NCBI RefSeq assembly: GCF_023556315.2
Contig: NZ_CP116221.1
Coordinates: 868,001-932,000 of the forward strand
Source: Psychroserpens ponticola
GTDB lineage: Bacteria > Bacteroidota > Bacteroidia > Flavobacteriales > Flavobacteriaceae
DNA: 64,000 nt
Reading direction: 5' to 3'
Within the stretch, counting starts at the first letter, position 1, and each line of letters starts with the position of its first letter. Shown one piece after another: positions 47,821 to 50,828 of this stretch. Under the pieces are notes generated by a model. That model had not been told where the DNA came from, did no database searches, and saw only the letters and a list, made by a program, of their open reading frames with translations. A program made the translations under genes and the position numbers.

Positions 47821-47933
47821 CGTTAAGTTAGTATTAGCTTTGTATTAAGAATTTTTTTTGTGCCAATGTGAGAATTAACTAATTATTTATTGAAACGCTA
47901 TTATGAAGTTTTAATTTTTATGTGTTTATTGCA

Positions 47934-47962
47934 AATTCTAATTTAAACAAGTCAAATTCTAA
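47934..47962 (+). promoter_or_regulatory. Direct repeats upstream of the kinase gene (candidate LytTR binding site)
   Basis: AATTCTAA occurs at 47934-47941 and 47955-47962, exactly 21 bp apart, within the longer repeat CAAATTCTAATT. The second copy begins 37 bp before the TATATTTG element. Two copies two helical turns apart is the arrangement LytTR-domain regulators bind. Confidence 0.6.
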
Positions 47963-47991
47963 TTCTCTACCTATTCTTTATTCTAACATAG

Positions 47992-47999
47992 TATATTTG
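47992..47999 (+). promoter_or_regulatory. -7 element of the LytS-type kinase gene
   Basis: TATATTTG matches TAnnTTTG exactly, 22 bp before the TTG start. No TTG is found at the -33 position, consistent with an activator-dependent promoter. Confidence 0.6.
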
Positions 48000-48020
48000 A
48001 TTAATAAACCTCATTAAGTT

Positions 48021-49973
48021 TTGAATAAAGTATTTCTCTTTTGCTTACTTATATTTAGTTGTTTTAAGATTCAATCTCAAAGCAAGGTTGCAGATAGTTT
48101 AATTATCATTGTGTCTCAAACAACCGATAAAGTTGACAAACTTCAACTTTTCAATCAAATTTCTAATGTTTATAAAACAAGTAGCGGAGAACAAGTAATT
48201 TTTTTTGGTGAAAAAGCACTTCAGCTTGCTAAAGAGCTAAACCTTAAACAAGAAGAAGGGTATGCTTATGTAAACTTAGGGAATGGTAATATTATAATAG
48301 GAAATTACGATAAAGCTGTTGATTGCTTTTTTAAAGCTAAAACACTATTTGAAATTGTATTAGAAAAAAATCCAACGGAAGACGTAAAGAAAAGTCTGGC
48401 CAGAGCATATGGAAGTATAGGAATTGTCTCTTCTGAGCAAAGTAATTACTCAAGAGCATTTCAATATTATTTAAAATCTATTAAGATTTATGAAGAGGTC
48501 AACGATGTAAATATGTTGTCACGTTTATATAATAACGTTGGTGTTGCATATAGATCACAAAAAGAATTTAGTAAAGCACTTCAGTATTTTGAAAAAGCTA
48601 AAGTCATTCAGCAACAATTAAATGATAGTAATATAGGCATTACATTAACAAATATTGCTAATTGCTATTTAGAGCTTAACACATATACTGAAGCGTATTC
48701 GTACTATAAAGAAGCAGGAAATGCCGTAAAAACCAATCCACGAGCACTGGGAGAATGGCATAATAGTATGGGATTATATTATAAAAAAACTAATAATATT
48801 GAAGCAGCTGTAGAACATTGGGATAAAGCTATTTTAGCGTTTAATAGTATAAATGATAAATTCGGAATTGCAGATACATACCTATTTAAAGGGCAATTGT
48901 TTTTAGAACAAAAACAATACAAAAAAGCCTTAGAAAATGCTTCAAAAGCCTTGAGTTTAGCAACCGAAACTAATGTGTTAGAACAAATAATACTTGCAGA
49001 AAAAGTGTTAAGTGCGGCAAACGAAAAGCAAAATAATTTATTTGAAGCTTTAAGACATTATAAATTATACGCAACATTTCAGGATTCCCTATTAAATGAC
49101 CAGAGTATAAGGAAAGGTGTTCAAGCAGAAATGAATTTTGAATATGAGAAAAAGGAAAGTTTAGAAAAATTAGAACGTGAAAAGCAACAATTAATTATAG
49201 TAGAGGAAGCAAAACAAAGCAGATTGAGATTGATTTTCATTAGTGTTGCTGCTTTATTACTGTGTGGTTTTATCTTTTTGTATTTCAATAAAATGCAACT
49301 AAAAAAGCGTTTAACCTTGCAAAATGAATTAATTGCTTACGAGCAAAAAGCATTGCATTTACAAATGAATCCGCATTTTATTTTTAATTGTTTAGGCGCA
49401 ATTTCAGGATTTATTATAAATAACGGAACAGATCATGCCATTAAGTATTTGGCAAAATTTTCTAAGTTAATGCGCTTAACATTAGAGTATTCTAAGGAAG
49501 CACTTATTCCTATTGAAAAAGAAATTGAAAGTCTTCAGAATTATTTGGAGCTTGAACAATTACGTTTTAATAATGTTTTTGATTTCAATATTACAAAGAG
49601 TAATACAATCGAAGATGCGGTTGCAATTTCTCCTTTATTAATTCAGCCTTTAGTGGAAAATGGCATCATTCACGGTCTGGTTGCTAAAAAAGAAAAAGGA
49701 AAAATAACTATAGATTTTTCTACAAAACAGAATATGATTATTTGTACAATACAAGATAATGGTATTGGTATAGACAATTCAGTTAGGCTAAAGGAAGATT
49801 CAGTGCAAATACATAAATCAATGGCGTTAAAGATTATCGAGAAACGTTTAAAAATGATTTCTAAAATAGCAAATACACAAGCGAGTTTAGATTGTCATCA
49901 AATTAATGATGCCAATGGTAACAGTTTGGGCACAAAAGTAATTATTAGCATACCAATTCAATACATAGACTAA
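48021..49973 (+). CDS. TPR-containing LytS-type sensor histidine kinase
   Basis: This 650-residue kinase starts at TTG. An in-frame stop lies 6 bp upstream, and this start preserves the signal peptide (ends KIQSQS). Tetratricopeptide repeats fill ~30-370 in the periplasm (RLYNNVGVAYRSQKEFSKAL, ALQYFEKAKVI). A coiled coil and one membrane helix (~401-420, LRLIFISVAALLLCGFIFLY) follow. The His_kinase domain has LQMNPHFIFNCLGAISGFII with His452, and the HATPase has PLLIQPLVENGIIHGL and DNGIGIDNS. It phosphorylates the LytTR regulator encoded one base downstream. The stimulus is unknown. Confidence 0.92.
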   Translation: MNKVFLFCLLIFSCFKIQSQSKVADSLIIIVSQTTDKVDKLQLFNQISNVYKTSSGEQVIFFGEKALQLAKELNLKQEEGYAYVNLGNGNIIIGNYDKAVDCFFKAKTLFEIVLEKNPTEDVKKSLARAYGSIGIVSSEQSNYSRAFQYYLKSIKIYEEVNDVNMLSRLYNNVGVAYRSQKEFSKALQYFEKAKVIQQQLNDSNIGITLTNIANCYLELNTYTEAYSYYKEAGNAVKTNPRALGEWHNSMGLYYKKTNNIEAAVEHWDKAILAFNSINDKFGIADTYLFKGQLFLEQKQYKKALENASKALSLATETNVLEQIILAEKVLSAANEKQNNLFEALRHYKLYATFQDSLLNDQSIRKGVQAEMNFEYEKKESLEKLEREKQQLIIVEEAKQSRLRLIFISVAALLLCGFIFLYFNKMQLKKRLTLQNELIAYEQKALHLQMNPHFIFNCLGAISGFIINNGTDHAIKYLAKFSKLMRLTLEYSKEALIPIEKEIESLQNYLELEQLRFNNVFDFNITKSNTIEDAVAISPLLIQPLVENGIIHGLVAKKEKGKITIDFSTKQNMIICTIQDNGIGIDNSVRLKEDSVQIHKSMALKIIEKRLKMISKIANTQASLDCHQINDANGNSLGTKVIISIPIQYID

Positions 49974-49974
49974 A

Positions 49975-50736
49975 ATGATAACAGCAATAATAATAGATGA
50001 TGATATTAATTTGCGTAATGGTATGAAGGGCTTGCTTCAACGTTATGCGCCAGAAATTGACGTAATAGGTGAGGCAGACGATGTTCAAAATGGTGCTGCT
50101 GAAATTCTAACCAAGAAGCCTCAGGTTGTATTTTTAGATATACAATTAATTAATGGTACTGGCTTTGACATTTTAGAACACATAATTAAAGTAGAAGGCA
50201 AGATAAATACAAATATTGTATTTATCACTGCACATGAAAAATATGCAATAAAAGCATTTCGTTTTTCAGCGTTAGACTTTTTGTTAAAACCAGTGGATCC
50301 AGATGAATTAAAACAAGTCGTTAACAAAATAAAGAACAGTATTGAACGCGCCTCCAGTTTTTCTAATATAGATTTATTGTTAGAAAATATCAGTAAGAAA
50401 GTGGATACGTTTAAACGTATTGCTTTATCGACTTCCGAAGGTATTCATCTTTTTGAAATTGGAAATATTATAAGGTGCGAAAGTGAAGACAATTATACCA
50501 AGTTTTATATAAAAAATCAAAAACCAGTTCTAATTTCAAAAACATTAAAAGAATATGATGAGTTGTTAAGTGAACACGGTTTTGAACGCATACATCAAAG
50601 TCATCTTATTAATATAATGTATTTAAAAACGTATATAAAAAAAGATGGTGGTTATATCATAATGGAAGATGGTTCTCAGTTACCAGTGTCACAACGCAAA
50701 CGTGATCGTTTAAAGGAATTACTAAACACCATGTAA
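49975..50736 (+). CDS. LytTR-family response regulator
   Basis: The start follows the kinase stop by one base. The receiver domain (~1-120) has DDD at 8-10, the phospho-acceptor Asp55 in VVFLDIQLINGTG and the Lys in FLLKPVDPDE. The LytTR DNA-binding domain (~145-253) has RIALSTSEGIHLFEIGNIIR, EDNYTKFY, GFERIHQSHLINIMYLKTYI and the terminal LPVSQRKRDRLKELL. Such proteins bind pairs of direct repeats about two helical turns apart. Two identical pairs flank this operon: in front of the kinase gene and in front of the next gene, pointing to autoregulation plus one target. Confidence 0.92.
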   Translation: MITAIIIDDDINLRNGMKGLLQRYAPEIDVIGEADDVQNGAAEILTKKPQVVFLDIQLINGTGFDILEHIIKVEGKINTNIVFITAHEKYAIKAFRFSALDFLLKPVDPDELKQVVNKIKNSIERASSFSNIDLLLENISKKVDTFKRIALSTSEGIHLFEIGNIIRCESEDNYTKFYIKNQKPVLISKTLKEYDELLSEHGFERIHQSHLINIMYLKTYIKKDGGYIIMEDGSQLPVSQRKRDRLKELLNTM

Positions 50737-50739
50737 TCG

Positions 50740-50768
50740 AATTCTAAATGAAAAGTGTCAAATTCTAA
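50740..50768 (+). promoter_or_regulatory. Direct repeats upstream of the repeat-protein gene (candidate LytTR binding site)
   Basis: AATTCTAA at 50740-50747 and 50761-50768, 21 bp apart, the same sequence and spacing as at 47934. The second copy begins 38 bp before TAACTTTA. Both sites are followed within a few bases by ACCTATT. Confidence 0.6.
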
Positions 50769-50798
50769 ATAACCTATTGATAACTTAAGTTGTTGGGT

Positions 50799-50806
50799 TA
50801 ACTTTA
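50799..50806 (+). promoter_or_regulatory. -7-like element of the T9SS repeat-protein gene
   Basis: TAACTTTA differs from TAnnTTTG only in the last base, 23 bp before the start codon. Confidence 0.4.
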
Positions 50807-50828
50807 AATAATAAATAAAATAATTGCT

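Follow-up and report, generated by a model that had tools for sequence, protein, structure and literature searches.

Paired direct repeats at a kinase-LytTR locus of Psychroserpens ponticola as probable operators of the regulator encoded between them

Two pairs of direct repeats in a 64,000-nucleotide stretch of Psychroserpens ponticola DNA (NCBI RefSeq assembly GCF_023556315.2, contig NZ_CP116221.1, positions 868001-932000; hereafter the window) very probably serve as operators for the LytTR response regulator whose gene lies between them. The regulator would activate its own operon, which begins with a LytS-type sensor kinase, and the adjacent gene for a DUF7619 surface protein of the type IX secretion system (T9SS). 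We describe here the sites, their promoter geometry, their conservation within the family Flavobacteriaceae, and a joint change of the sites and the DNA-contact residues of the regulator. A first-pass annotation of the window had proposed that the regulator probably activates its own operon and one surface protein. This main claim is very likely right, as both the conservation of the sites and the joint change with the contact residues support it. Two of the outcomes named there as refuting it did not occur, since neither the exact nor the extended site recurs elsewhere in the genome and the geometry is kept in all 23 orthologous loci.

The locus lies on the plus strand in the order repeat pair K, kinase, regulator, repeat pair T, and T9SS protein (Table 1). 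The half-site AATTCTAA appears twice in each pair with starts 21 bp apart, and the coordinates of the pairs and their distances to the -7 boxes were as the first-pass annotation had given them. Site T begins 4 bp after the last base of the regulator stop codon. The TTG start of the kinase is 87 bp from the start of site K, which matches the ATG starts in three same-genus relatives (L118-L120; 86-87 bp). The possible third half-site has 2 mismatches when paired with repeat 1 of site K. The heptamer ACCTATT does follow the second repeat at both sites, by 6 bp at K and 3 bp at T, as had been noticed. However, it is not conserved in orthologs and was rejected as a component of the site, so we treat it as incidental.

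Table 1. Features of the locus and of a second LytTR system in the same genome (window positions unless a locus or genome label is given)
Feature	Position	Strand	Description
Possible third, weak half-site AATTTTTA	47913..47920	+	21 bp upstream of site K repeat 1
Direct-repeat site K	47934..47962	+	AATTCTAA at 47934-47941 and 47955-47962; precedes the kinase and regulator genes
-7 box TATATTTG, operon promoter	47992..47999	+	37 bp from start of repeat 2 of site K
LytS-type sensor kinase, 650 aa, TTG start	48021..49973	+	TPR repeats, His_kinase, weak HATPase_c (Pfam)
Response regulator, 253 aa	49975..50736	+	Receiver and LytTR DNA-binding domain; PF00072 and PF04397 above cut-off
Direct-repeat site T	50740..50768	+	AATTCTAA at 50740-50747 and 50761-50768
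-7 box TAACTTTA, T9SS gene promoter	50799..50806	+	38 bp from start of repeat 2 of site T
T9SS cargo surface protein, 1030 aa	50829..53921	+	LRR_4, DUF7619, Por_Secre_tail, weak DUF11 (Pfam)
Second LytTR system of the window's genome (G000)	L141:559-590 = G000:C1:3865964-3865995		Related site upstream of genes for a 240-aa protein, a 988-aa kinase, and a LytTR regulator

A lone AATTCTAA is unremarkable, with 18 copies in the window compared to 11.9 expected. The exact spaced pair, AATTCTAA-N13-AATTCTAA, matched twice in the 4.03 Mb genome to which the window belongs (G000), both times at this locus, and a control pattern read backwards gave 0 matches. When 2 mismatches were allowed, this short pattern gave 63 genome matches compared to 45 with the control and, therefore, its loose matches are uninformative. 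The extended pattern TCRAATTCTAANTSAAAN7AATTCTMATT with up to 3 mismatches found only sites K and T in G000 (control 0), so neither form of the motif had a further occurrence in the genome. Across the 15 genomes searched, the extended pattern gave 23 matches and the control gave 1 in all. One extra match, in G393 (L130), has no clear box at the right distance for its best register, and another, in G148 (L131), has a low matrix score. Family-wide, 42 of 397 genomes contain an exact short pair compared to 20 with a control match (our own count), so many single exact matches elsewhere are due to chance.

The position of the repeats relative to the promoter was then compared among related loci. 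All 39 promoters (23 before kinases and 16 before T9SS-type genes) had a -7 box, defined as a match to 5 or more of 6 bases, 37-39 bp from where repeat 2 starts, compared to 2.85% of random positions, and the box distance played no part in selecting the sites. Boxes were searched for this tally between 30 and 47 bp. With a wider search (20-60 bp, ties towards 37), the best box was at 37-39 bp in 19 of 20 sites. The -7 box spans -12 to -5 relative to the transcription start in the excerpted text of PMC9723704. With the box so placed, the repeat pair would lie at about -71 to -43, centred near -57, and transcription is predicted to start near 48004 for the operon and near 50811 for the T9SS gene. 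Between repeat 2 and the box, no column exceeded 0.6 bits except the three directly after the repeat, with no sign of a -33 element. The unconserved -33 region fits dependence on an activator. At 13 of the 16 T9SS promoters the box ends in A, and at 20 of the 23 kinase promoters it ends in G (our own count), which suggests that the T9SS promoter is weaker and more activator-dependent than the kinase promoter.

Relatives of the regulator were collected from a family-wide search (8 of 397 genomes at E up to 1e-80, including the window's own), a same-genus search (three other loci among 23 genomes, 68-72% identity), the genus of G148 (10 matches in 9 of 61 genomes), and named contigs (13 loci, 7 of them close). 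Duplicates were taken out (L104 and L111, same as L031; L105 and L112, same as L037; L168, same as L034), as was L035, a near-copy of L034 from Flavobacterium beibuense with both sites present. Distant relatives (L038-L043, 25-33% identity) were left out, and 23 non-duplicate loci were counted.

The repeat pair with its 21-bp period was present before the kinase in 23 of 23 loci, each time with a -7 box, again with 5 or more of 6 bases matching, 37-38 bp from where repeat 2 starts. Of these kinase sites, 3 are of the AATAATAA type and 20 of the AATTCTAA type, some of the latter departing from it by one to four changes. A T9SS-type gene is next downstream in 22 loci, L037 being without such a neighbour. 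The T9SS tail was confirmed with Pfam in the window and five relatives and by eye in the others, and the gene in L169 is cut by the contig end. Where the gap before the T9SS-type gene is 84 bp or wider, a second site is present in every locus (16 of 16), with its box at 37-39 bp. Where the gap is 51 bp or narrower, no locus has one (0 of 6). The matrix used for scoring was trained on 20 sites picked for their likeness to AATTCTAA and, therefore, the conservation of the core is partly by choice. The flanking TC, the spacer TSAAA, and the -7 box played no part in choosing these training sites. They scored 31-49, and left-out-locus scores were 17-47. The weakest AATTCTAA-type sites were the kinase site of L165 (14.1) and the T9SS site of L170 (11.3). 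The AATAATAA-type sites, which we call class B, scored 1.4-12.5 and were recognised by their repeats.

Class B consists of L116, L162, and L163, which have AATAATAA in both half-sites (AATAATAA and AATAATAG in L163) and a -7 box at 37 bp. These loci form one clade with 100/100 support and, therefore, represent a single evolutionary event. The LytTR-domain columns that set the three class B regulators apart from the other 20 are S170A, D172 to A, I, or G, R241S, R245K, and L250I, although one of those 20 has Q at 245. In a profile alignment, R241 corresponds to AgrA R233 and Y174 to AgrA H169, with D172 two residues before Y174 in our counting. AgrA H169 and R233 are sequence-specific DNA contacts and N201 is a minor-groove contact (PMC12482169, PMC11039898), and the R233A mutant has no detectable binding (PMC4227749), according to excerpts of these papers. 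A G:C pair inside the half-site is lost in class B together with the arginine aligned to AgrA R233. Both classes meet in the genome G429, which encodes two of these regulators, one per class, and each is accompanied by the site type of its class. Since both half-sites and the DNA-contact residues change jointly, this points to the operon's own regulator as the binder. A wider proposal, which we make tentatively and which falls a little short of being probable, is that flavobacterial LytTR operators share a common 21-bp frame, with a repeat sequence that is private to each regulator group and set by a few contact residues. In one Flavobacterium clade, AATTCTAA would then have become AATAATAA with loss of the arginine at the R233 position, and the two codes in one genome would represent a natural change of DNA specificity.

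In the explanation we favour, the TPR kinase would read an envelope signal and the regulator would become phosphorylated. A pair of regulator molecules would occupy the AATTCTAA half-sites, which are separated by two helical turns, and so sit on the same face of the helix. Positioned at about -71 to -43, they would bring RNA polymerase to a promoter with a -7 box but no conserved -33 element. This would switch on the kinase-regulator operon in a positive feedback, and the adjacent DUF7619/T9SS surface protein gene would probably be activated rather than repressed.

Another possible explanation, which we consider unlikely, is that another LytTR regulator of the same cell, such as the G000 paralog at G000:C1:3869962, is the main or an additional binder of the sites, and that the regulon is shared. 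The locus of this paralog carries the site ACGAATTCTAT-N10-ACGAATTCTAG with TACATTTG at 38 bp, and related regulators elsewhere lie near AATTCTAA pairs. Since this second LytTR system has a related site, cross-talk could occur. However, the flanks before the core differ, being mostly TCR here and ACG at the paralog locus. In class B, moreover, the sites changed together with the operon's own regulator, and the two regulators of G429 each have their own kind of site. Somewhat less likely again is repression, in which the operator would block the promoters until a signal releases it. The sites are upstream of the promoter and centred near -57, as in activation by AgrA, and the unconserved -33 region fits an activator better. 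That the second site merely persists as a copy from a duplication of the operon promoter, without a function of its own, is very improbable. The core, the spacing, and the distance to the -7 box are the same at both promoters, as such a copy would have them, but the sequence between and around the repeats differs, and yet the second site follows the size of the gap (16 of 16 and 0 of 6 loci, above). Chance coincidence in AT-rich DNA is negligible: lone half-sites are common and exact pairs do occur in 42 of 397 genomes, compared to 20 with the backwards control, but both exact pairs of this genome are at one locus and the site is in all 23 orthologous loci.

Several observations weigh against binding and activation by the operon's own regulator at these sites. 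The second LytTR system of G000 has a site with a similar core, which makes the assignment of regulator to site only probable. Degenerate sites, with 3-4 changes from the core, are found in L114, L165, and L170. Class B is one event, and 13 regulator columns separate it, 8 of them outside the LytTR domain. A LytTR paralog in G265 keeps a AATTCTAA site although it has Q at 241 and its arginine one residue earlier, at 240. Conversely, no site was found before L122, a G000 paralog that does have R241. Both cases count against a simple code. As for the geometry, the box search for the tally resolved ties towards 38 bp, and the kinase site of L120 has a better box at 55 bp, the 1 of 20 sites that departed in the wider search.

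The first-pass annotation also called the regulon self-contained. By the pattern, this holds in G000, where there are only two sites, but not in relatives, which have unlinked sites, and the second G000 LytTR system has its related site. An unlinked site precedes a DUF7619/T9SS gene in G014 (L129), and in G097 another probably lies upstream of the gene for an 841-aa protein that has a Plug match and a weak MG2 match (L128). A strictly local regulon was, therefore, rejected as a rule, although the pattern fits it in G000. DUF7619 was also rejected as a regulon marker: G000 has eight such genes over the cut-off, with a site only at the linked one. Since G000 has just two sites, only the linked DUF7619 gene can carry one.

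G000 has 23 LytTR matches in total. A motif scan of the 300 bp before the first predicted gene of 19 other LytTR operons gave scores of -4.0 or less in every case; two regions of the scan gave no gene model (L139, L149) and three a shortened regulator (L135, L137, L151). The conclusion that no other G000 LytTR operon has the motif was rejected, as the scan missed the paralog 3869962 site, which stands before the 240-aa gene further upstream. In the same 19 operons, repeats matching at 8 of 9 bases were 21 bp apart in 5, compared to a mean of 0.24 for 49 other offsets. With a looser rule, repeats at offset 21 were found in 10 of 19 operons, compared to a mean of 1.31 for other offsets, the highest of which reached 4. 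Offset 21 was first or level with the highest in each of the six settings tried, with thresholds chosen when the result of the 19-operon motif scan was already known. None of the five other operons with offset-21 repeats had a -7 box (at least 5 of 6 bases) at 37-39 bp and, therefore, this box spacing is shown for the AATTCTAA groups only. The 21-bp-period repeats in L133, L136, L144, and L146 each differ in sequence (e.g., TGTRTAGTTGGT in L136), and the one in L145 appears by eye to be inside a gene.

Beyond these orthologs, G265, G339, and G060 have another LytTR regulator (about 38% identity for G265) beside divergent AATTCTAA pairs with boxes at 38 bp. In each case (L125:5014-5096, L126, L127), one pair faces a kinase-regulator operon and the other an operon with a T9SS-tail protein; the tail is Pfam-confirmed in G265 only, and the L125 kinase is of the 7TMR-DISM kind. 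One of the two promoters has a TAnnTTGY-type box and the other TAnnTTTG. Further LytTR systems, at L171-L174, share this core and also have their box at 38 bp. We also examined 18 further places with exact pairs, a selection from the family-wide list. Seven were inside genes, none with a LytTR gene within about 5 kb. The other 11 were intergenic, with a LytTR gene within about 5 kb at 6 and a box at 37-38 bp at 7.

Three proteins of 357-359 aa (L173:5128-6201, L174:3809-4888, L176:3801-4874) have C-termini that look alike by eye and CGAATTCTAA pairs with a box at 38 bp upstream. A Pfam scan of two of the three gave no match, and a LytTR gene lies within about 5 kb at two of the three loci. At L121:6051-6128 (G393), intergenic AATTCTAA-type pairs occur on both strands, one with a downstream TACCTTTG by eye, and no LytTR gene was noticed nearby. 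Tandem arrays of a 7-base AATTCTA-like unit in G374:C59, G400:C11, G095:C11, and G395:C47 mimic the exact spaced pair and are a source of artefacts in pattern scans.

The kinase has a PF06580 His_kinase domain (E 1.5e-21) and shares its operon with the regulator, the two genes being 1 bp apart. It was judged by eye to have a signal peptide and one membrane helix. The Pfam scan found TPR repeats and no multi-span LytS-type membrane input (5TM/7TM), so the LytS/LytTR label means here a His_kinase-family kinase paired with a LytTR regulator and makes no wider claim. The AlphaFold model of the regulator has a mean predicted local distance difference test score (pLDDT) of 79.5, a predicted template modelling score (pTM) of 0.50, and a poor linker, and its domain orientation is not reliable; its best match in the Protein Data Bank is full-length ComE. 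The T9SS protein ends in a Por_Secre_tail (E 6.4e-15), and its N-terminus resembles a signal peptide, by eye only. DUF7619 and Por_Secre_tail are present in all five downstream genes scanned in relatives (L031-L034, L036). In the same-genus relatives L118, L119, and L120, there are two or three T9SS-type genes in tandem downstream of the regulator, compared to one in the window, and the site was found only before the first of them.

The arrangement resembles AgrA P2/P3, where a LytTR response regulator has two direct repeats upstream of its own operon and its target. In the excerpted text of PMC4227749, the direct repeats of AgrA from Staphylococcus aureus centre near -60, compared to near -57 here, and the equivalent of R233 is present as R241. 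The half-site differs, being ACAGTTAAG for AgrA in excerpts of PMC11039898 and AATTCTAA here, as the first-pass annotation had remarked; no ACAGTTAAG-like half-site is present, and the direct-repeat period agrees with the classic one of about 21-22 bp. The Bacteroidota -7-box promoter and the TPR-input kinase are further differences. YpdB and BtsR of E. coli also pair a LytS-type kinase with a LytTR regulator, and their targets are transporters. Their motif is unrelated to AATTCTAA, and the sensing part of the kinase differs. In a yhjX oligonucleotide, two copies of the YpdB repeat GGCATTTCAT are spaced with a period of 21 bases (excerpts of PMC4847170). In LytTR regulatory systems (LRS), the operon is preceded by direct repeats whose distance is mostly 12 bp (range 11-13 bp) and whose sequences are poorly conserved between systems, and positive autoregulation was shown for HdrR of HdrRM in Streptococcus mutans (excerpts of PMC6193735). 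An LRS consists of a regulator and a restraining membrane protein with no kinase, whereas this locus encodes a kinase and a regulator with a receiver domain and, thus, is not an LRS. PorX/PorY and SigP also link two-component control with T9SS. PorX acts on the secretion machinery and is not known to be a LytTR protein, whereas one cargo gene would be the target here.

A limited full-text search of open-licence literature found no operator of a flavobacterial LytTR regulator. Systems of this kind are known, and the operator, the T9SS target, and the natural change of DNA word have, within the scope of this limited search, not been described. The finding would tie a two-component system to one T9SS surface protein. 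A fixed geometry would let flavobacterial LytTR operators be read from sequence and help assign targets to regulators. The two regulators of G429 are a natural pair with different DNA words in one cell, which makes base reading by the beta-fold LytTR domain testable.

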